Positions 26,074-38,480 of a stretch of 38,480 bases of DNA are shown here, one piece after another. Below the pieces are notes generated by a model that worked only from the letters and a program-made list of their open reading frames with translations, was not told where the DNA came from and made no database searches. Both the position numbers and the translations under genes were made by a program. Each line of letters opens with the position of its first letter. The stretch's first letter is position 1. This DNA comes from Bacteroidia bacterium. Lineage in GTDB: Bacteria > Bacteroidota > Bacteroidia > Cytophagales > Cyclobacteriaceae. Where the stretch lies: NCBI GenBank assembly GCA_030430675.1, contig JAUIKU010000018.1:1-38480 (forward strand). Direction: 5' to 3'.

Positions 26074-27045
26074 TTAATTCGCTCTGGCTTTGCGCCTGGC
26101 CTCCCGGGCTTCCAGGAACGCATCCAATTCATCCCTGGACATGGGAAGGTCATCGTAGTCATCAAGCCATTTCTGAAAATCCTGCTCAAATACTTCCTTA
26201 TCAACCACGAATGCTTCGTTCACATATTCGTACTTGTTGGTTTCCATACAAAAGCGGTTGAATTCATCGCGCAGTGCCGTATATTCTCCACCTATTACCA
26301 CATCCTGTACCAGGTGCGGGGGGATAAAGGCCACTCCGGTTTTTTTGGCCAGCACTACATCGCCGGGCAATACCGTTACCCGTCCGATCCGGATGGGACC
26401 ATTGACGTTAGCTATCATCATCTGTTTGATGGCAGAAGGGTCCGAACCCCTGATCCAGCCATTGAAGCCTTCAATTTGAGACAATCCTTCCACATCCCTC
26501 ACGCTACCATTAAAAATCACTCCTCTTTTGCCCGCCTTGTAGATGGCGTTGCCCAGGTTGTCACCAATCAGGGTACCCTCCACCATTTTTCCATAAGCAT
26601 CGGCCACATATACATCGCCATCCAGCAATTTGATAATGGGGGCGTAATTGGTAACCGGTGTTTTGGTGCCCTCTTTTTCAGCCTGTTGCTGAACGTAATT
26701 GTTGAAGTCTTCCCTCAAGGGCATAAACTGGGCAGTTACCACCCGACCGGTCATTACCTGGTCGGGATGCAGGATTTCCCACCCGTTTTGGTAGGTGCTG
26801 GCAAAATTCTCAAATTGTAGATGGTACCCCCTGAACCGCAGGCTGGACCACACTTCCTCCATGGTCAGCGCTTTCAATCGTTCCAGCAATTCGTCGGATA
26901 CCTTTGGCCTGCCGTCAGGTGTGCGTTCGCCTTCCCACTCCGAGGTCAGTTCACGGATATTTTCGGCGGGCCAGACCACGTTCTGGGAGTAAGACAGGGA
27001 GCTGGTCACTATTAAAAGTGCCAGCAGTATGTTTAGCTTTTTCAT
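26074..27045 (-). CDS. Exported RraA-like protein (HMG/CHA aldolase superfamily)
   Basis: A 323-residue protein; the ATG at 27045 starts a signal peptide (MKKLNILLALLIVTSSLSYS) and is preferred to the start at 27078. The core has the RraA/aldolase signature: ADAYGKMVEGTLIGDNLGNA followed by KRGVIFNGSVRDVEGL, including the Arg-Asp pair that in the aldolases binds substrate and divalent metal. RraA proteins in other bacteria are cytoplasmic RNase E inhibitors or aldolases of about 160-230 residues; this one is longer at both ends and apparently periplasmic, so an RNase-inhibitor role is unlikely. A highly charged C-terminus (EAREARRKARAN) ends it. It may be a periplasmic aldolase or decarboxylase. 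Confidence 0.82.
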   Translation of the reverse strand: MKKLNILLALLIVTSSLSYSQNVVWPAENIRELTSEWEGERTPDGRPKVSDELLERLKALTMEEVWSSLRFRGYHLQFENFASTYQNGWEILHPDQVMTGRVVTAQFMPLREDFNNYVQQQAEKEGTKTPVTNYAPIIKLLDGDVYVADAYGKMVEGTLIGDNLGNAIYKAGKRGVIFNGSVRDVEGLSQIEGFNGWIRGSDPSAIKQMMIANVNGPIRIGRVTVLPGDVVLAKKTGVAFIPPHLVQDVVIGGEYTALRDEFNRFCMETNKYEYVNEAFVVDKEVFEQDFQKWLDDYDDLPMSRDELDAFLEAREARRKARAN

Positions 27046-27149
27046 TTGGTTTAGTCTTTCTGTTAATCGTGCTATCAATGGTAAGACGCAGATATAGCAT
27101 TAATCCCGTAATGGAGTGGTGGAAATTTATAGTTCGTGCCGTCCTACAT

Positions 27150-27945: not shown

Positions 27946-29706
27946 TTATTTCGCCTGACCCGCATCAACCTGTACTACTTCACTGGGTTCATAGCCTATC
28001 CGGTGGGCCTGGACAACTATATCACCGGTGGCGGGGGCTTTGATGTCTTGAGTATAAACCGACCAGGCCGGTGGTTCGGAGCCATCGTTATTTACGAATT
28101 TATAGCCGATGGATGCGCCTTCCGTGTCACAGGAGATGTTTAATTTTCCATCGGCAATACTTATTTCGGGATTGGCGGTAACGGGCTTTTGATCACTTCC
28201 CTGCCAAAGCTGGTTCACCAATTCTGCTTCCGGCAGGTTGGGCTGATCACCGATATCCGTCAGCCAGCGGTCCATTTCATGGCGAAGCTCCTGAAGTACT
28301 TCCTGATAGGCGGGATCGCCTGCCAGGTTGTGAAGTTCGTGAGGATCACTAACACAATCAAACAGTTCTTCCTGGTCCTTGCTTTCACGGAACCACTGAA
28401 GCTGGTACTGGTCCAGCTCACCGCTGTCTCTCATACGCAGTAATTCCTGCATGGTGGGAATGCGTTCTCGGTAGACCACCGGAAGGTAATACGCCTGTTC
28501 CGGCCGGTAGTTTCTGATATATTTGAATTTTTGGCCTCTGACTGCTCTTATGGCATCGGTAAACCCGTCGAAACGGTCAGCGGCAGCATGGATATATTTG
28601 CGCGGCTGATCCGACTGGTATGCCCCCAGGAAAGCCTGGCCCTGCAGGTAGTCCGGGGGGGAGATTCCCGCCAGTGAAAATACCGTAGGGGCAAAGTCTA
28701 TAAAGCTGAGCAACTGGTTATCCCTGGAACCGGCCTTTTGTCGATTGGGAAACCTGATGATCATGGGGGTATTCAACCCCGAATCATATATCAGTCTTTT
28801 TTGACGCGGCAAGGGTCCCCCATGGTCACCATAAAAGAATATTATGGTCTGCTCCAGTAGACCATCCGCCTCCAGTTGGTCCAGTACCGCACCCAACTGG
28901 CGGTCCATTTCGGCGATGTTGTTATACATTTTCCACATATCGCGCCGAACCGGTTCGGTATCCGGCAGATAGGGAGGGATGGGGAAATCCAGATCTTTTG
29001 CAACATGTACCGGTGTTTCTTCTTCGGTGGTACGGGTACCCCATTGCGCTGATTTAAAGGTGGTATCTCCGGCGTGGTAGTGTCTCATTTCATTGTGCCT
29101 GAAACCATAGGGCTCAAACAATCCGGATTCATGGGTGGTGGTAAAGTTGAATATGGCGAAGAATGGCTGGTCAGGAGCGCGGTTGCGCCAGTGCGCAAAA
29201 TTACTGCTTTCATCCCAGGCGGTTACCGGATCCTGAAACTGGTAGTCCTTCTTCGAGTTGTTGGTACAGTAGTAGCCGTTGATACGCAGGATTTCACTCA
29301 TCATCCGAGCCTGAGGTGGCGGTACCGCTTCATATGAAGGCAGGCCGGTCACCTCGGTATAGGAGGTGGTTCTCATATGATTGGCTCCGATACCTGAAGG
29401 ATACATACCGGTGGCAATGGCGGCCCTGCTGGGAGCACAAACCCCCGAAGGTGAATACAGGTTGGGATAAACCACTCCTTCGGCCGCCAGCCGGCTCAGG
29501 TTGGGGGTTTGGATGGTGGAATCCCCAAACATTGGCAGCCAGGGTCCCAGGTCTTCAGTGACCAGCCACAGGATATTAGGATGGGCGGGAAGTTCCAGTT
29601 CATCCGATGATGGATCTGTATGTTGAGGCTGTTCCGTTTGACAACAGGCCAGAAAAATGCAAAGAAGTACGGTGTAGGATTTACGGAGCGTGATCGGTTC
29701 AGTCAT
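27946..29706 (-). CDS. Type I (formylglycine) sulfatase lipoprotein
   Basis: A 586-residue protein. The start at 29706 gives a signal peptide with a lipobox (IFLACC, Cys21 or Cys22), while the longer frame from 29766 would add 20 residues ahead of it. The sulfatase signature is GVCAPSRAAIATG with C90-x-P-S-R94, whose Cys is converted to formylglycine by a separate maturase not seen here. The N-terminal metal site reads TEDLG instead of the common DDLG, and FFYGDHGGP provides the later metal-binding Asp-His. The C-terminal 80 residues form a beta-sandwich (ISIADGKLNISCDTEGASIGYKF). It probably removes sulfate esters from algal or animal polysaccharides. No polysaccharide-utilisation (SusCD) pair is present beside it. 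Confidence 0.9.
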   Translation of the reverse strand: MTEPITLRKSYTVLLCIFLACCQTEQPQHTDPSSDELELPAHPNILWLVTEDLGPWLPMFGDSTIQTPNLSRLAAEGVVYPNLYSPSGVCAPSRAAIATGMYPSGIGANHMRTTSYTEVTGLPSYEAVPPPQARMMSEILRINGYYCTNNSKKDYQFQDPVTAWDESSNFAHWRNRAPDQPFFAIFNFTTTHESGLFEPYGFRHNEMRHYHAGDTTFKSAQWGTRTTEEETPVHVAKDLDFPIPPYLPDTEPVRRDMWKMYNNIAEMDRQLGAVLDQLEADGLLEQTIIFFYGDHGGPLPRQKRLIYDSGLNTPMIIRFPNRQKAGSRDNQLLSFIDFAPTVFSLAGISPPDYLQGQAFLGAYQSDQPRKYIHAAADRFDGFTDAIRAVRGQKFKYIRNYRPEQAYYLPVVYRERIPTMQELLRMRDSGELDQYQLQWFRESKDQEELFDCVSDPHELHNLAGDPAYQEVLQELRHEMDRWLTDIGDQPNLPEAELVNQLWQGSDQKPVTANPEISIADGKLNISCDTEGASIGYKFVNNDGSEPPAWSVYTQDIKAPATGDIVVQAHRIGYEPSEVVQVDAGQAK

Positions 29707-29725
29707 TTCGGTTGGTTCGTTGGTT

Positions 29726-29741
29726 TTCCAAATATTTGGAA
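29726..29741. promoter_or_regulatory. Perfect 16-bp palindrome upstream of the sulfatase gene
   Basis: TTCCAAATATTTGGAA is a perfect inverted repeat centred 27-28 bases before the sulfatase start and about 128 bases before the divergent DUF3095 start. The position fits an operator that would block or adjust sulfatase transcription. The binding protein is unknown. Confidence 0.45.
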
Positions 29742-29848
29742 TGCCGGTTTTCCTGCAAAATGGCAAAGAAACCCCTACTTAGCAAATGTTTTAACTGCGG
29801 GAAAATTTATAAAATATGGCGAATTGAAAGCTGAAAAGCCATAAATTC

Positions 29849-31016: not shown

Positions 31017-31027
31017 GACCTTAGATC
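31010..31027. terminator. Inverted repeat containing both convergent stop codons
   Basis: GATCTAA, a GACC loop and TTAGATC form a perfect 7-bp stem. The TAA at 31014-31016 ends the DUF3095 gene and the complement of TTA at 31021-31023 ends the Gfo/Idh gene, so each stop lies in one arm of the stem. There is no T tract, so action as an intrinsic terminator is doubtful. Confidence 0.4.
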
Positions 31028-32052
31028 CTAACCGCTTGTTTAAGCTTAGCACTTTCATATATGGCCTCCTGTATCTGTAGGTTTTGCAAATATTTGCTGC
31101 CGGTGGTTTCACAGGGGGTATGTTTCAACAGGCTTTCGATAAGGTGTTTTTGAGTGAAGTAAACACAATCGGCCCCAAAGCCCCGGTGGTGGTGCTGGTA
31201 ATGCACTTCTTCCTCCAGTTGGCCCAGGGGTTGTAATGTCAGGCGACCATCCTGGTACAAACGGATGCTGCCCTGATTACCCTCAAGCAGCATGGTGCCA
31301 AAGGTATACCGGGGATTTTCGGAGTCACTTTCATTGTATCGGTTGGCGTCCCAAATGGCCCTGGCGCCATTGGCCATTTTAAACCAGACCAAGGCACAGT
31401 CCTCACCGGTGATTGCTCCATTCAATTTCCTCAGGTCTGCAAATACGCAGTCCACCTCACCTAATAGATACCTGAAGGTATCGATGAAGTGAATACCCGT
31501 TTCGAAGATCAGCAATTTGGGCATGGTGCGGAAATAGGGTTGTCTTTGCAGGTAGGCATCCGGCTGCCAGCCGTCGCCCGTTCTGGTTCGCAGGTAGAGC
31601 GAATGTATTTGGTCTCCTATGGCACCCTGCTCGATCAATTGCCGGATCTTTCGGTACCAGGGTTGAAACCGGAAGTTCTCATGAACCATAAAGGGCAGGT
31701 TGTCAGGCATACTTTTAACCAACTCCACCGCTTCCTGGTAAGTTGGTGCCAGCGGCTTTTGACAAATGATTGCCACCCCTTTTTCTGCCGCCATTTTACA
31801 CAGCTCCATGTGCGTGGCAGGGGGGGTTATGATGTCGATCAGGTCCAGTGCTTCATTATCCAGCAGTTGTTCCATGGAACCATACACCGTTGTTACGCCA
31901 TTTGCCTGGGCCATCGCCTGGGCTTTTTGTTCATCCCGGTCACAGATGGCCACTAAATTAACTTCCGGGATCCGGGTCCAGGCTTCCACATGGAATTGTG
32001 AGAAGTATCCCGCTCCCACACAAGCCAGTTTTAAAGGAGCTCCATCTTTCAT
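31021..32052 (-). CDS. Gfo/Idh/MocA family NAD(P)-dependent oxidoreductase
   Basis: A 343-residue cytoplasmic protein. The N-terminal Rossmann fold begins KLACVGAGYFSQFHVEAW (glycine motif GAGYFS) and is followed by the family motif CQKPLAPTYQEA, whose Lys-Pro belongs to the catalytic region. The C-terminal half has MVHENFRFQPWYRKI and ETGIHFIDTFRYLLG, with the His-x3-Asp pattern expected for the catalytic residues. It is the last gene of the minus-strand operon and overlaps the preceding 81-residue ORF by 4 bases (ATGA). It probably oxidises a sugar, sugar acid or related polyol; the substrate cannot be read from the sequence. Confidence 0.9.
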   Translation of the reverse strand: MKDGAPLKLACVGAGYFSQFHVEAWTRIPEVNLVAICDRDEQKAQAMAQANGVTTVYGSMEQLLDNEALDLIDIITPPATHMELCKMAAEKGVAIICQKPLAPTYQEAVELVKSMPDNLPFMVHENFRFQPWYRKIRQLIEQGAIGDQIHSLYLRTRTGDGWQPDAYLQRQPYFRTMPKLLIFETGIHFIDTFRYLLGEVDCVFADLRKLNGAITGEDCALVWFKMANGARAIWDANRYNESDSENPRYTFGTMLLEGNQGSIRLYQDGRLTLQPLGQLEEEVHYQHHHRGFGADCVYFTQKHLIESLLKHTPCETTGSKYLQNLQIQEAIYESAKLKQAVRI

Positions 32053-32306: not shown

Positions 32307-33572
32307 TTACTGTTCCATTGTGCCCAACCCCCGGTCTGCTTTGACCTGTAACCACAGCAGTATGGCCAGGGCATTCAACGCTGCAGCTACATAGAAAAAG
32401 TAATCCATGGAGCCCGTCCAGTCCGCAATGTAGGGAAATGCCAGGGCTGTTATAAAAGAGCCCAGGTTACCGGCCATGTTCATGGTACCGGACACGGTGC
32501 CGGAGTTCTTTTTGCCGATGTCCACACATAATGTCCATGATGGGGGAATGGTCATGTCGGCTCCGAAAATGGCGATGCTTAAACAGGCCACCGCCCCCAG
32601 AGGGGTGTCCATGAACAAACTGCCGATCAGTCCCGCTACCGCCAGGGTAAAACCCAATATGGCCGGCAATCTGCGGGACAGGTTCCAGTGGCCGTTTCGG
32701 AATATACGGTCGATCATATATCCCGAAACCCAGTTACCCAGGGCACCGGCAATAAATGGGGCAACCGCATACCAACCGGCTTCTAAAGCTTCCAGCTGGT
32801 ATTTGCTCTTCAAGTAGGGGAAAAGCCAGGTTAGAGCGAAAAAATTGGTGAAGTTGCTGCAAAAATATTGCCCCACCACCGACCAGATATTTTTCGACCT
32901 CACCATTATGGCCGCGCTGATTCCCGATCCTTTGCGGGTTTCTGCATGCTGCCGGTGTGTCAGGATATAGTCTTTTTCCTTACTGCTGAGCCAGGGATGC
33001 TTTTCAGGGGTGTCGCGGAAGAGAGACCACCATACAATGGCCCAGATCACTCCTACAATGCCCAGGATAAGAAAAGACTGACGCCAACCGTATTGATCGA
33101 TCATCCAGGCCACCAGGGGCAGGGCAAAAGCCGCTCCTATCCGGGAGCCTGAAAAGTTCAATCCGATCACAAAACCTCTTTCATTCAGTGGTATCCAGGA
33201 ATAGGTGGCCCTGGACATGCCGGGGAAAGCCCCGGCCTCGCCCATACCAAATAGAAATCTGACCACCAGCAGGCTTATGAAATTCCAGACAGCTCCGGTT
33301 AATGCGGTGAGTATCGACCAGAAAGTAACAATTCCTGACAGTATTTTCCTGGGCCCAAACCGGTCGGCAGACCAGCCGCTGGGTACCTGCATCAGGGCAT
33401 AACCCAGGGCAAATGAAGACAATACCCAACCCATGGCCTTGTCACTAAGGCCTAAAGCCCCTGCAATAGGATCCTTGGCCACTGAAATACAAATACGGTC
33501 TATATACAGTAACAGGGAAAGCAAGAACATACCGGCTGCCACCCAATAGCGTCCTTTGATCCGGCTACTCAT
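32307..33572 (-). CDS. MFS transporter, anion:cation symporter (hexuronate/sugar-acid type)
   Basis: A 421-residue inner-membrane protein with twelve predicted membrane segments. The first cytoplasmic loop carries GWSADRFGPRKIL, the MFS signature, preceded by GWVLSSFALGYALMQVPSG, typical of the ACS family (ExuT, GudP, TtuB, tartrate and hexuronate carriers). The segment FLFGMGEAGAFPGMSR also matches that family. It overlaps the kinase gene by 8 bases, so uptake and phosphorylation of the substrate are encoded together. The likely substrate is a monocarboxylic or dicarboxylic sugar acid. Confidence 0.9.
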   Translation of the reverse strand: MSSRIKGRYWVAAGMFLLSLLLYIDRICISVAKDPIAGALGLSDKAMGWVLSSFALGYALMQVPSGWSADRFGPRKILSGIVTFWSILTALTGAVWNFISLLVVRFLFGMGEAGAFPGMSRATYSWIPLNERGFVIGLNFSGSRIGAAFALPLVAWMIDQYGWRQSFLILGIVGVIWAIVWWSLFRDTPEKHPWLSSKEKDYILTHRQHAETRKGSGISAAIMVRSKNIWSVVGQYFCSNFTNFFALTWLFPYLKSKYQLEALEAGWYAVAPFIAGALGNWVSGYMIDRIFRNGHWNLSRRLPAILGFTLAVAGLIGSLFMDTPLGAVACLSIAIFGADMTIPPSWTLCVDIGKKNSGTVSGTMNMAGNLGSFITALAFPYIADWTGSMDYFFYVAAALNALAILLWLQVKADRGLGTMEQ

Positions 33573-34983
33573 TGATGGGTGACTGGGGGCTAAGCATATT
33601 TACGACGTGGGCCAGTGCCTGCTGATCTCCTACATTACCGGGAAAGATGACCTGATGTATACCGGGGAATTTGGATTCGGATCCCAGCTGCCATACCGGA
33701 ACCCCTTTGATAATCTGACCTCTAACCATGGCCCGCCTGACGCCCATGGATCCGGTGGCGATGTCGCTGGAAGTAATTCCGCCTTTGGAGATCAGGAATC
33801 GTGGAGCAATATTCAGTGCCTTTACCATGTCTGTCAAACACCGAGAAACCGATTGACCGATCAATTGATTCTTCTCAGGTAAGGGATCAGACACCAGATT
33901 CCTGCTGGTGAACAGTACCACTTTCTTTCCCTGCTGTAATAGCTGGCTGAGTTGGTGGGTGAGGTTTTCAAGGTAACTATCGGGAGAAGCTTCCAGTAAC
34001 CTGGTTACAGATAATTCCAGGGTGGCCAGGTCCGGACGCTGCTGTAATAAATGCTGGAGTTGTTCTGTGGTTGTGGAAACAAATGACCCCACCACGATCA
34101 AACCGCCGTTATTGTTATTGAGTACCAACGCGTCACCGGAAAGTAATGGTATGGGTTCCTGGCAGGCCAGCGCTGCCACCAGCGAAGCGGCAGTGCGAAA
34201 AAGCGGAGGGACTCCGGATCGAACCAGGGCCAGTCCGAAGAAAACCAAATCCTGGTAAGCAGCGGCATTCACCACGCAGGTGCTGCCGGCATTCAGTGAA
34301 GATAATTTCTCAGCCAGCTGGTCGATACTGCCGCTTCTAAGATCTGCCAGGGATATGCTGCTAACCCGGTCTCTACTGACCTTACCCCTGGTTTTTTCTG
34401 CCACCCAGTCTTTCAGATCCGAGTGCTTATAGCCGAAAACCGGATCTTGGGCATAGGGAGTTTGGGAAGCGGGGATCAATTGCTGGCCCTGCTGGACATA
34501 GTGAATGTCATCGATGGTAAAGCGGCCTCCTTCGAAGAAGGCGGGAATTACAAAACGGATGCCCCCGCTTTGGCCCAACCCCGCTTCCAGTGCATCAACC
34601 TCTGCCGGATAATGTCCTCGCAAGGTGCTGTCACTGCGGCTTACCACCCAGTACCTGGTGCCGGTTAATTCGGCGGCGGCTTTAATGTTCCCACCAATTT
34701 CAGCAGCCAGGCGGATAGCATGGGCTTCAGTAAGACTTCTGGAATTGGTTAGTATATAGAACAATTTAGTACCCAGTTGGAACTCTTTGTGAATGTCAGA
34801 TACGGACCATTCAGTGAGTACCGGAATATCGTGAACGGTTTGGGTCCCTGTAGGATCGTCATCCAGCACGATGATGGAATCTACCACAGTGTGCATGGCT
34901 TCCTTGAGTATCGTCCGGTAATCTGTGTCGGGTACAGGGGGGAGTCCCTGTATTACATCGATCGATTGTGTGGTGGCATTCAT
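33565..34983 (-). CDS. Four-carbon acid sugar kinase family protein (DUF1537)
   Basis: A 472-residue cytoplasmic kinase; the ATG at 34983 is preferred to the GTG at 34995. The N-terminal sugar-binding domain starts with the family motif IIVLDDDPTGTQTV and includes VVSRSDSTLRGHYPAE. The C-terminal nucleotide-binding domain ends with LISKGGITSSDIATGSMGV and IFPGNVGDQQAL. Characterised members phosphorylate D-threonate, L-threonate or D-erythronate at C4, usually with a PdxA2-type dehydrogenase next to them. No PdxA-like gene is seen here; a tartrate/malate-type dehydrogenase lies one gene upstream. The exact substrate is open. Confidence 0.9.
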   Translation of the reverse strand: MNATTQSIDVIQGLPPVPDTDYRTILKEAMHTVVDSIIVLDDDPTGTQTVHDIPVLTEWSVSDIHKEFQLGTKLFYILTNSRSLTEAHAIRLAAEIGGNIKAAAELTGTRYWVVSRSDSTLRGHYPAEVDALEAGLGQSGGIRFVIPAFFEGGRFTIDDIHYVQQGQQLIPASQTPYAQDPVFGYKHSDLKDWVAEKTRGKVSRDRVSSISLADLRSGSIDQLAEKLSSLNAGSTCVVNAAAYQDLVFFGLALVRSGVPPLFRTAASLVAALACQEPIPLLSGDALVLNNNNGGLIVVGSFVSTTTEQLQHLLQQRPDLATLELSVTRLLEASPDSYLENLTHQLSQLLQQGKKVVLFTSRNLVSDPLPEKNQLIGQSVSRCLTDMVKALNIAPRFLISKGGITSSDIATGSMGVRRAMVRGQIIKGVPVWQLGSESKFPGIHQVIFPGNVGDQQALAHVVNMLSPQSPINE

Positions 34984-35017
34984 GGTTCTGGTCACCCTAA
35001 TATATGGAATTTTTATA

Positions 35018-35650
35018 TCAGGCAGGTTCGAAGGCGATCACCCGGGCAGGAGCACCGTCACCACCGGCAATCTTCAGTGGGAATGCCGCCAGGGTAACGG
35101 ATTTACCACTGATCTGATGCAGGTTGGTCAACCCTTCAATAATAATTACTCCCCCACCCAGCAGCATCTGGTGTATTTCGGTAAGCTCCCTCATATTGTT
35201 GACATCGGCCACTGACGGCGGTTCTACCGCCAGCATTTTTACCCCATTTGCCACACACCACCGGGCCAGTTCTTTACTGATGCGGGGCAGTCCGTCACGG
35301 TATCTCGGTTCATTCAGGTGTTTACTCCAGCCGGTCTCCAGCAGCAAGCTGTCCCCTGATTTGAAGTCATCCAACTGAGCGGTTACTTCTTCTTCTTCGA
35401 TTAAATGGCCGTCAACTGATATGGGCAGGCTTACCTTCCAGGCTTTACCAATGAAGGATGAGACCGGGTATTGGTCGATGGTAGCAGGTGTGGCTTCAAA
35501 ATGAAGCGGGGCATCCATGTGGGTGCCGGCATGGGAATAGATGTGTAACAGTCGGGCATTCCAACCGTGGTCTTTTTTGGTATTGGCTATGTCGTAGTCA
35601 AACCCCCGCATTCCCTTTCGATAGGCCAGGGTCAGGTCGATGGGTTTCAT
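35018..35650 (-). CDS. Cyclase / kynurenine-formamidase-like metal-dependent hydrolase
   Basis: A 210-residue protein. The ATG at 35650 (MKPIDLTLAYRKGM) is chosen because family members start near this IDLT motif; the longer frame begins with TTG at 35692 inside the previous gene. It has the metal-binding signature SHAGTHMDAPLHF (H-x3-H-x-D-x3-H). Family members hydrolyse N-formylkynurenine, lactones or amides, or open ring substrates. In this operon a role as a lactonase for an oxidised sugar, before the acid is phosphorylated, is plausible but inferred. It lies 19 bases after the dehydrogenase gene and 34 before the kinase. Confidence 0.85.
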   Translation of the reverse strand: MKPIDLTLAYRKGMRGFDYDIANTKKDHGWNARLLHIYSHAGTHMDAPLHFEATPATIDQYPVSSFIGKAWKVSLPISVDGHLIEEEEVTAQLDDFKSGDSLLLETGWSKHLNEPRYRDGLPRISKELARWCVANGVKMLAVEPPSVADVNNMRELTEIHQMLLGGGVIIIEGLTNLHQISGKSVTLAAFPLKIAGGDGAPARVIAFEPA

Positions 35651-35669
35651 CCCCAGGATGTCCCGCTGG

Positions 35670-36740
35670 TCAGACACCTTGTGGTTGGCCAATGATTTCC
35701 AGTACCGCGTCGGTCACCTGATCAGTAGATGCGTTTCCGCCCAGGTCCGGGGTCAGGATGCCCTGAGCGGTAACCTGGTTGATGGCCCTGAATAGCTCAT
35801 CGGCTGCTTTTGATTCGCCCAGGTGTTCCAGCATCAGGGAGGCAGACCAAAACTGTCCCAGGGGATTGGCAATATTTTGTCCCGCAATGTCGGGAGCGGA
35901 ACCGTGAATGGGTTCAAACATGCTGGGGAATTCCTTTTCCGGATTGATATTGCCACTGCCTCCCAGCCCTAGACTGCCCATAATGGCCCCTCCCAGGTCG
36001 CTGAGAATATCGCCGATCATATTGGTTGTAAGGATCACATCAAAATACTCCGGATGCAGCACAAAATTGGCGGAGGCAGCATCCACGTACATTTTTCTAT
36101 AGGTGACTTCCGGATAGTGCCGGGAAACTTCCTCTATCACCTTGTCCCAGTAACCCAGGGTGTGGATAAGGGTGTTTGACTTGGTAACATTGATTAAGTT
36201 GCCGCGCCGCTTTTGGGCCAGCTGGAAGGAGTAGTGGGCCACCCGTTCGATGCCGGCCCTGGTAAAAATGCTGGTGTCGGTGGCCAGTCCTTCCGGCCGG
36301 TCGGGGTAGACCGTGGTACCACTCTGTACAAATTCACCTTCGTTGTTTTCCCTGATGATCACAAAATCGATATCATCCGAAGTCTTGTTTCTAAGAGGGC
36401 TGTCTACCCCCTTGAAAACTTTAACCGGACGATAATTGACATATTGTTTAAAGGCAGTACGTACCGCATTGGTAAACTCTTTGAAGGGTAACCGGTCATC
36501 AACCTCGGGCAGTCCCACTGCGCCAAATAACAGGGCATCGTATTGGGCCAATTGAGACATTCCGTCTTTGGCTAGAAAAGCCCCCGTTTTCAGGTAGTAA
36601 CCAGCGCCGTAATCAAAGCTGTCCCACTCAATGTTAAATCCGAACCGATCGCTGGTGGTTTTAAGCACTTCCAATGCTGCCGGCACGATTTCATGTCCGA
36701 TACCATCTCCCTTTATTGCGGCTATTTTGTACGTATGCAT
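35670..36740 (-). CDS. Tartrate/D-malate dehydrogenase-type (isopropylmalate dehydrogenase family)
   Basis: A 356-residue NAD-dependent beta-decarboxylating dehydrogenase. It begins IAAIKGDGIGHEIVPAALEVL. The stretch YDALLFGAVGLPEVDDRLPF and QYVNYRPVKVFKGVDSPL resembles DmlA/TtuC (D-malate and tartrate dehydrogenases) rather than LeuB. The family signature NMIGDILSDLGGAIMGSLGL with its metal-binding Asp residues is intact, as is FEPIHGSAPDIAGQN. The normal length matches DmlA. It lies in the sugar-acid operon where other DUF1537 loci carry PdxA2, a member of the same structural superfamily. It may decarboxylate the phosphorylated acid or act on D-malate or tartrate itself. Confidence 0.88.
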   Translation of the reverse strand: MHTYKIAAIKGDGIGHEIVPAALEVLKTTSDRFGFNIEWDSFDYGAGYYLKTGAFLAKDGMSQLAQYDALLFGAVGLPEVDDRLPFKEFTNAVRTAFKQYVNYRPVKVFKGVDSPLRNKTSDDIDFVIIRENNEGEFVQSGTTVYPDRPEGLATDTSIFTRAGIERVAHYSFQLAQKRRGNLINVTKSNTLIHTLGYWDKVIEEVSRHYPEVTYRKMYVDAASANFVLHPEYFDVILTTNMIGDILSDLGGAIMGSLGLGGSGNINPEKEFPSMFEPIHGSAPDIAGQNIANPLGQFWSASLMLEHLGESKAADELFRAINQVTAQGILTPDLGGNASTDQVTDAVLEIIGQPQGV

Positions 36741-36821: not shown

Positions 36822-38105
36822 TTACTCCCAGGCCTTGAGGGCATCCTTAAACATGGCTTCCAGGTCATTGGCATCGGCGGGCCTCGGGGATAATTTGGTT
36901 ACCCGGTGTTGCGGCAGGGTGCCCCGTACCAATCCTGGTATATCCTCTTCTCCGTACCCGATGGCGCTTAATCCGTTGGGCATATTGAGCTGTTTCATAA
37001 GATCCACTATCAGGCTGGCCAGCAGTTCGCCTGCTTCTGCTTCCGGGTCTTTTATTTTCGATATATCCGCTCCCATGATCCGGGCCAGCTGCAGGTGCCT
37101 TTCAGGACAAGCGGGACCGGTAAATCTGAAAACCGCCGGGGCATTCAGTACTACCGACATACCGTGGGGTACGATGGGGTGGTCGAGATTTAGTCCTTCG
37201 GGCCGGTAGGTTTTGATCATTCCCGATACCGGGTAGGACATGCCATGGCAATAGTGAACACCGGCATTTCCAAATCCCATACCGGCCATACTGGAAGCCA
37301 GTATCATTTGGTTTCTGGCCTCGTCATCTTCGGGATGGGTAACTGCCTTCACCAGGTATTTTGAGGTAAGCTCCACCGCCTTAAGCGCCCACATGTCGCT
37401 GATGGGGTTGCTGCCCTGGTAGGCAGGGCGGTAGCGCGGACCGGCGGGACGTGGCCGCTGGTAAAAGGGTATGGCAGTGTATGATTCCAGCGCATGGCAC
37501 AGTACATCCAACCCGGAACTTGCCGCTATCACCGTGGGCATGGTACGGGTATTATCCGGGTCAACCAGCCCTAAAATTGGTTTCAGGAACCGATGAGAAA
37601 TACCCGATTTGGCATGGTGTTCGGTCAGGTCCATAATGCTGGTACCGGTGGTTTCGCTGCCAGTGCCGGCAGTGGTGGGGATGGCGATTAAAGGTTTAAC
37701 GGGACCCGGTACCGGTTTGCCCTGTCCAATAGGGGCGTTGATGTAAGCATAAAAATCATCGGGATAGGTGGAATACAGATTGGCCGCCTTGGCGGTATCC
37801 ATAACCGATCCACCACCAACTGCCACAAAACCCCCGTAGTTACCCTCAACGGCAACTGCGACCGCCTCTTTCACCGAAATATCGGTGGGCTCAACTTTTA
37901 CCCCACTATACAGGTCATAGGTGATGCCTTCCGACTCCAGGGATTCCAGCACTGTTTGAACCGGCGGCAATTCTTTCAGGTTGGCATCGGTCATGACCAG
38001 TACCCGGTCAAGGCCTATGTCTTTTAAATCCATGCCTACTTCACGGGTAACTCCAGCACCAAACCGCAGGTTGGAACTGGACATCTGAACAGCATATTCT
38101 TTCAT
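36822..38105 (-). CDS. Hydroxyacid-oxoacid transhydrogenase-like iron-containing alcohol dehydrogenase (ADHFE1/HOT type)
   Basis: A 427-residue cytoplasmic enzyme. Its sequence follows the animal ADHFE1 (HOT) family: MSSSNLRFGAGVTREVGMDL, FVAVGGGSVMDTAKAANLYST, PTTAGTGSETTG, DVLCHALESYT, RPAYQGSNPISD, GVHYCHGMSYPVSG and PHGMSVVLNAPAVF, with Asp and His residues that could bind the metal. HOT moves electrons from 4-hydroxybutyrate or a 3-hydroxyacid to 2-oxoglutarate and forms D-2-hydroxyglutarate. Bacterial relatives are also NAD-dependent 4-hydroxybutyrate dehydrogenases. The gene is 22 bases after the AGE epimerase and 81 before the dehydrogenase. The exact acid oxidised is unknown. Confidence 0.88.
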   Translation of the reverse strand: MKEYAVQMSSSNLRFGAGVTREVGMDLKDIGLDRVLVMTDANLKELPPVQTVLESLESEGITYDLYSGVKVEPTDISVKEAVAVAVEGNYGGFVAVGGGSVMDTAKAANLYSTYPDDFYAYINAPIGQGKPVPGPVKPLIAIPTTAGTGSETTGTSIMDLTEHHAKSGISHRFLKPILGLVDPDNTRTMPTVIAASSGLDVLCHALESYTAIPFYQRPRPAGPRYRPAYQGSNPISDMWALKAVELTSKYLVKAVTHPEDDEARNQMILASSMAGMGFGNAGVHYCHGMSYPVSGMIKTYRPEGLNLDHPIVPHGMSVVLNAPAVFRFTGPACPERHLQLARIMGADISKIKDPEAEAGELLASLIVDLMKQLNMPNGLSAIGYGEEDIPGLVRGTLPQHRVTKLSPRPADANDLEAMFKDALKAWE

Positions 38106-38127: not shown

Positions 38128-38480
38128 TTAGTAAAATCCCAGTCGCTCCAACAACTCCAGCATGGCCCGTCCGTTGTGGTAGGGCGCTTTCCAGGGTCCT
38201 GCCTTATCTTCCCGGTAATCTACATTTCCCCCTTTATCAACCTTCCAGTGCCATTCTCCCTGCGGGTCAGATAGATGTTTTAGAATAAAATCCCAGGTGT
38301 TTTCGGCTAGTTGCCAATACTTTATGTCTCCGGTAATTTGAAAGGCATTAACCAGCCCCACTAAAGCTTCCGCCTGAGGCCACCAGTGTTTTTCGGAGTT
38401 GATAACTCCCGAATCATCACCTTCGTACATTAGCCCGCCATCCTGGTCCATTCCACTTAGAGCGGCATTTGTGAGATTTA
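38128..38480 (-). CDS. AGE-family sugar 2-epimerase, C-terminal part (5' end outside window)
   Basis: The minus-strand frame stays open to the window end, so only the C-terminal 117 or so residues are seen; this is a cut at the edge, not a broken gene. EKHWWPQAEALVGLVNAF, GPWKAPYHNGRAMLELLERL and the earlier DGGLMYEGDD match the C-terminal alpha/alpha-barrel of N-acylglucosamine 2-epimerase family enzymes such as cellobiose or mannose 2-epimerase. The HWWPQAE motif carries the conserved catalytic His. It would supply an epimerised sugar to the operon. The true substrate is unknown. Confidence 0.85.
   Translation of the reverse strand, partial: NLTNAALSGMDQDGGLMYEGDDSGVINSEKHWWPQAEALVGLVNAFQITGDIKYWQLAENTWDFILKHLSDPQGEWHWKVDKGGNVDYREDKAGPWKAPYHNGRAMLELLERLGFY

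Follow-up and report, generated by a model that had tools for sequence, protein, structure and literature searches.

The DNA analysed here, called the window, is a 38,480-nucleotide stretch from a Bacteroidia bacterium of the family Cyclobacteriaceae. It is one entire contig (C321), ending at position 38480. The minus strand encodes a DUF1537 kinase and a TtuC/DmlA-like dehydrogenase, two genes of a five-gene cassette that is conserved in several phyla and probably serves sugar-acid breakdown. In the cassette dehydrogenases, phenylalanine replaces the catalytic tyrosine. The cassette would represent a variant form of sugar-acid catabolism built on DUF1537, and the active-site change, an unusual one, evolved twice. 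The five genes, in order of transcription, are the following.

35670..36740, minus strand: TtuC/DmlA-like dehydrogenase (TtuC-F), 356 amino acids (aa), with the RENNEGEF motif and Phe137 (PF00180, E=6e-90; TIGR02089, 455.7 bits).

35018..35650, minus strand: PF04199 'cyclase', a metal-dependent hydrolase of the kynurenine formamidase / isatin hydrolase type (PF04199, E=1.5e-24; HxGTHxDxP motif; relatives in the PDB).

33565..34995, minus strand: DUF1537 kinase of a divergent subgroup (PF07005, E=3e-52, 178 bits; PF17042, E=8e-31, 108 bits).

32307..33572, minus strand: MFS transporter of the anion:cation symporter (ACS) type, D-galactonate transporter-like (MFS_1, E=4e-62; TIGR00893, 273.9 bits, below cut-off).

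31021..32052, minus strand: Gfo/Idh/MocA dehydrogenase (PF01408, E=1.4e-25).

The dehydrogenase and cyclase genes are separated by 19 bp and the cyclase and kinase genes by 22 bp. The kinase and MFS genes overlap by 8 bp, and 254 bp lie between the MFS and Gfo/Idh genes. The cyclase open reading frame extends to a TTG at 35692, and the ATG at 35650 is the likelier start. A preliminary description of this DNA had paired the kinase with a TtuC/DmlA-type dehydrogenase and placed an ACS-type transporter and a Gfo/Idh dehydrogenase nearby. Both observations hold. The open reading frames are where they were said to be and match Pfam and NCBIfam profiles, and the MFS_1/TIGR00893-type and PF01408 matches are on the same strand.

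We measured how often the dehydrogenase and kinase occur together in 295 Cyclobacteriaceae genomes. A dehydrogenase more than 60% identical to that of the window was present in 28 genomes, the kinase in 36, and all 28 with the dehydrogenase also had the kinase (hypergeometric 2.4e-32, ignoring relatedness). The two genes are ~1-3 kb apart in 25 of the 28; in the remaining 3, contigs break there. Neighbourhood statistics thus place the linkage of the pair far above chance.

All five genes of the cassette also occur together in Flavobacteriaceae (Aquimarina, Algibacter, Zobellia, Lutibacter, Ulvibacterium, Cellulophaga and Maribacter), Prolixibacteraceae, Thermogutta (Planctomycetota) and Verrucomicrobiota. 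On a Sedimentisphaerales contig the first four genes are followed by the contig end, and in Puniceicoccaceae one contig carries the cassette without the MFS gene. A FadR/GntR- or LacI-type regulator usually adjoins. The cyclases share 47-51% identity across phyla and keep the HxGTHxDxP metal motif, and the Gfo/Idh proteins share ~50-55% across Bacteroidota, Planctomycetota and Verrucomicrobiota. We take these partners to be orthologues, on ~50% sequence identity rather than on a tree. The cassette kinases derive from more than one lineage. A search of the available literature found no paper on the combination of such a kinase with a tartrate dehydrogenase and a cyclase, and the cassette is apparently undescribed so far. 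Its recurrence in several phyla and the 28 of 28 co-occurrence support the earlier suggestion of an undescribed sugar-acid pathway. If true, marine and soil bacteria that degrade polysaccharides would have a widespread pathway not characterised before.

The best NCBIfam model for the dehydrogenase is TIGR02089 (tartrate dehydrogenase), although the score is under the equivalog cut-off of 470.4 bits. The closest solved homologue is the tartrate dehydrogenase 3flk, which has RENTEGEY where the window protein has RENNEGEF. The Lys-Tyr acid-base pair of the window enzyme is therefore not intact; the Lys is kept and the Tyr is Phe137. Phe occupies this position in every cassette dehydrogenase examined, comprising 48 sequences of one type (type A, including the window and counting a few strains twice) and 7 of another (type B). 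Conversely, Tyr is found in 22 of 22 reference TtuC, LeuB and isocitrate dehydrogenase (IDH) sequences, among them the canonical TtuC of the window's own family. In the 49 cassette sequences checked, the other catalytic residues (Arg at three positions, Asp at three and the Lys) are retained.

The Lys of this pair is described as the base for hydride transfer, and the Tyr as the acid that acts after departure of CO2 (Aktas & Cook 2009, as cited in PMC11134350). In human IDH1, Lys initiates catalysis, and the Y139D variant still interconverts oxo acid and hydroxy acid without decarboxylation (PMC12200840). Because the acid Tyr is lost and the Lys retained, the cassette enzyme is best read as a non-decarboxylating dehydrogenase, which would not need enolate protonation. 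It had initially been credited with the same chemistry as the decarboxylating TtuC and DmlA. This is doubtful, since Phe replaces Tyr in all cassette members.

Could an ordinary D-malate/tartrate dehydrogenase lie beside a DUF1537 operon by chance? The relationship to 3flk and a score near the TIGR02089 cut-off would fit, but the linkage is conserved over several phyla, the Tyr-to-Phe change is invariant and the enzymes form a clade apart from canonical TtuC of the same family. We consider chance proximity very improbable and, given the invariant substitution and separate clade, reject assignment as an ordinary TtuC. The cassette enzymes resemble TtuC and DmlA in fold, in their active-site Arg, Lys and Asp residues and in ~40-50% identity. 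They differ in having Phe for the catalytic Tyr, a clade of their own and another gene neighbourhood; a canonical ttuC on an Agrobacterium plasmid adjoins glycerate kinase and pyruvate kinase genes. The automatic label 'tartrate dehydrogenase' is probably wrong for the cassette enzymes. Some genomes of Rhodopirellula, Verrucomicrobia, Lewinella, Pseudarcicella and Bryobacteraceae have a kinase locus that seems to lack the dehydrogenase. We rejected its loss there, as a Phe-type enzyme is encoded elsewhere in those genomes, in some cases at a contig end.

Maximum-likelihood analysis placed the type A sequences, which come from Bacteroidota and Sedimentisphaerales, with canonical TtuC. Those of type B, from Thermogutta, Rhodopirellula, Verrucomicrobiota and Bryobacteraceae, fell outside both TtuC and LeuB in a clade of their own with strong support. 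Monophyly of A and B costs 55 log-likelihood units and is rejected by an approximately unbiased test that excluded the Phe column (p=0.0013, an optimistic value because the grouping was chosen after the first tree). Since A and B fall in separate clades, Tyr-to-Phe arose twice. Apart from Phe137, just two residues that are rare elsewhere occur in both clades, Leu77 and Tyr218; Tyr218 is also present in two Tyr-bearing references and was not counted as specific to the Phe clades. It is possible, at rather less than an even chance, that two unrelated branches of the beta-decarboxylating hydroxyacid dehydrogenase superfamily were independently recruited to the same cassette, and that in each the Tyr-to-Phe change alone made an oxidative decarboxylase into a simple dehydrogenase of sugar acids that supplies the DUF1537 kinase. 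If so, the pathway would be an undescribed one, and a single residue would have switched the type of reaction more than once. The cassette offers a natural, replicated test of the role of Tyr in the Lys-Tyr pair of the IDH/IPMDH/TtuC superfamily, which is among the best studied of enzymes.

We lean towards a pathway in which the TtuC-like enzyme would oxidise an unphosphorylated acid without decarboxylation and the kinase would act next, a reading that we place just short of an even chance. The sugar acid would probably be released in many species by an adjoining secreted glycoside hydrolase and taken up by the ACS-type transporter. The cyclase would probably hydrolyse the acid's lactone or ester as it comes in, and a further oxidation upstream may fall to Gfo/Idh. 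Using NAD+ and a divalent metal, the TtuC-like enzyme would convert a four-carbon acid of the L-threonate or D-erythronate type to its 2-oxo acid by oxidation at the 2R-hydroxyl. The DUF1537 kinase would then phosphorylate the 4-hydroxyl of this oxo acid, and CO2 release to triose phosphate would follow through a further enzyme or a spontaneous step. We infer the substrate, the order of steps, the non-decarboxylating chemistry, how CO2 is released and what the cyclase and Gfo/Idh do.

D-malate and L-tartrate share their 2R centre with L-threonate and D-erythronate. LtnD and DenD oxidise L-threonate and D-erythronate ahead of 2-OtnK-type kinases (PMC12540250). We place the TtuC-like enzyme upstream of the kinase because a 2R preference fits the LtnD and DenD substrates and because the Tyr is lost. 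It would most likely occupy the place of LtnD or DenD in known pathways, and not that of PdxA2. The LtnD (or DenD)/2-OtnK/2-OtnC pathway for L-threonate and D-erythronate (Guo et al. 2024, as outlined in PMC12540250) likewise combines a hydroxyacid dehydrogenase with a DUF1537 kinase, and relatives of the window kinase adjoin LtnD/DenD-like and class II aldolase genes. In contrast, the cassette dehydrogenase belongs to the isopropylmalate/tartrate superfamily, class II aldolase is absent, the cyclase and Gfo/Idh are additional, and the transporter is MFS and not GntP or ABC.

Several points weigh against oxidation ahead of the kinase. The Arg triad is kept, including the equivalent of IDH1 Arg132, which contacts the leaving beta-carboxylate, and would suit a dicarboxylate. 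A 2-OtnC-like class II aldolase (PF01116) for the last step was not found in the cassette or the genome, where the one match is a class II fructose-bisphosphate aldolase fragment at a contig end. The roles given to the cyclase and Gfo/Idh are guesses. The kinase has GGIT where GG(D/E)T is expected, so its substrate may differ.

The kinase carries the motifs DDDPTGTQT (residues 45-53) and GGITSSD (405-411). An alignment of its subgroup shows little or no variation in DDDPTGTQT, RxDSTLRGH, KGGITS and PGNVG. The AlphaFold model has a confidence score (pLDDT) of 89, and its top eight Foldseek matches in the PDB are all DUF1537 structures (including 4xgj, 5dmh, 3dqq and 1yzy). By its PF07005+PF17042 architecture and its fold, the protein is a member of the DUF1537 four-carbon acid sugar kinase family, with a predicted activity of phosphorylating a sugar acid at the expense of ATP. 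Its scores are below the cut-offs of the D-threonate kinase DtnK model NF047819 (85.3 against 450 bits) and the 3-oxo-tetronate kinase OtnK model NF043035 (41.2 against 350 bits).

Other kinases of the same subgroup have HIBADH/LtnD-like neighbours in Bacillota (locus L109 among them), DenD-like neighbours in Cytophagales (L067, L086), and class II aldolase genes beside them in Cytophagales, Deinococcus and Rhodococcus (L067, L172, L173). PdxA beside a subgroup kinase was seen once, in Lachnospiraceae (L141). Both kinds of kinase occur in a single cluster on a Rhodococcus antarcticus plasmid, the canonical DUF1537 paired with PdxA and the subgroup member with a class II aldolase. As a positive control for the pairing, another genus of the window's family has a canonical 391-aa DUF1537 gene that overlaps pdxA2, with an iron-containing alcohol dehydrogenase (Fe-ADH) gene adjoining (L210, 5071-8668). 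At L128 (3132-5335) and L134 (8162-10407), a DUF1537 gene of the subgroup neighbours one recognised by eye as BKACE-like (beta-keto acid cleavage), possibly a further undescribed pairing.

The preliminary description started from the view that DUF1537 pathways pair the kinase with PdxA2, and took the dehydrogenase to stand in place of PdxA2. PdxA2 is one known partner, but this view is incomplete, as the LtnD/OtnI/3-OtnK/3-OtnC route and the three-step LtnD/2-OtnK/2-OtnC route run without PdxA2 (PMC12540250). The lack of a PdxA-like partner extends beyond the window. A search of the whole assembly, listed as 100% complete, returned a single PdxA, on contig C218, with ksgA, plsX and fabH as neighbours. 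This is the expected vitamin B6 biosynthetic gene and therefore there is no PdxA2 in the genome; one concealed outside the window is ruled out. Hence, PdxA2 is indeed absent, but the kinase subgroup is not one linked to PdxA2, as the L210 and Rhodococcus loci illustrate. The DtnK-PdxA2 pathway for D-threonate, reportedly described by Zhang and colleagues in 2016, has a DUF1537 kinase and the same dehydrogenase superfamily in common with the cassette. Conversely, the cassette lacks PdxA2 and its kinase is of another subgroup, scoring 85 against 450 bits as a D-threonate kinase.

A TtuC-like enzyme acting in the manner of PdxA2 would reverse the order of steps. The kinase would phosphorylate the tetronate first, the TtuC-like enzyme would oxidise C3 of the 4-phosphate, and the beta-keto acid would lose CO2 spontaneously to give dihydroxyacetone phosphate, making the Tyr dispensable. 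PdxA, a member of this superfamily too, also leaves decarboxylation spontaneous; loss of Tyr would fit. So would the absence of PdxA2, a cassette with neither 2-OtnC nor 3-OtnC, and the tight linkage of the dehydrogenase and kinase genes. However, PdxA2 pairs of the same family use the different, 391-aa DUF1537 (L210), Rhodococcus keeps both kinase types with different partners, and no new basic residue suited to phosphate is common to both Phe clades. We regard phosphorylation before oxidation as unlikely, with a modest chance of being right.

Oxidation without loss of CO2 could also apply to another kind of substrate. Tartrate dehydrogenase oxidises L-tartrate without decarboxylation. If the substrate were a dicarboxylic or branched sugar acid, and not a simple tetronate, the TtuC-like enzyme could likewise oxidise it without decarboxylation, and the kinase would act on the product of the cyclase and Gfo/Idh. 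Retention of all three Arg and the presence of those two additional conserved enzymes would agree with this. Secreted proteins with DUF5060 and Collagen_bind_2 domains often adjoin the cassette in three phyla (L087 2250-4262, L112, L117, L130, L132, L110, L106 and L092). Their fold is near GH5 mannanase and GH140 apiosidase (predicted model of modest confidence, pLDDT 62), and such apiosidase-like or GH5-like hydrolases suggest an unusual glycan-derived acid. Against this, described DUF1537 kinases use C4 acids or apionate-derived ones, and nothing points directly to a particular dicarboxylate. We think a dicarboxylic or branched substrate quite unlikely. The search for the substrate through the neighbouring glycoside hydrolase reached only the GH5/GH140-like fold with DUF5060. 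A second conserved neighbour of ~370 aa (L107 5311-6417, L111 11996-13072 and L061 5340-6494) had no PDB match by sequence and a marginal match to GH5.

The genome has a second DUF1537 gene, on C301 (L005, 247-3790), between genes for a RuBisCO-like protein and a PGDH_C-like protein and without PdxA. RuBisCO-like partners of DUF1537 are known, and we take the C301 locus to resemble the D-apionate oiaX/oiaK/apnO set. The D-apionate pathway, said to have been described by Carter and colleagues in 2018, uses OiaK (DUF1537) and a RuBisCO-like protein. The cassette shares the DUF1537 kinase with it but has no RuBisCO-like protein or oxidoisomerase.

Two further genes precede the cassette on the minus strand, so that transcription runs from a truncated AGE-type protein through Fe-ADH to the TtuC/DmlA-like dehydrogenase, PF04199 cyclase, DUF1537 kinase, MFS and Gfo/Idh.

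38130..38480, minus strand: AGE-type (N-acylglucosamine 2-epimerase-like) protein, C-terminal end, cut by the contig end and named by eye from the frame 2 translation.

36822..38105, minus strand: Fe-ADH, 81 bp before the TtuC-like dehydrogenase (PF00465, E=4e-43).

Both were rejected as cassette members, as neither is conserved with it; no Fe-ADH gene was found near the cassette in relatives, and among cassette loci Fe-ADH occurs at the window locus only. Its RPAYQGSNPISD stretch presumably resembles hydroxyacid-oxoacid transhydrogenase (ADHFE1). Downstream of the cassette are genes for a secreted-type sulfatase (27946-29766) and an RraA-like protein (26074-27078), which suggests a polysaccharide-use region.

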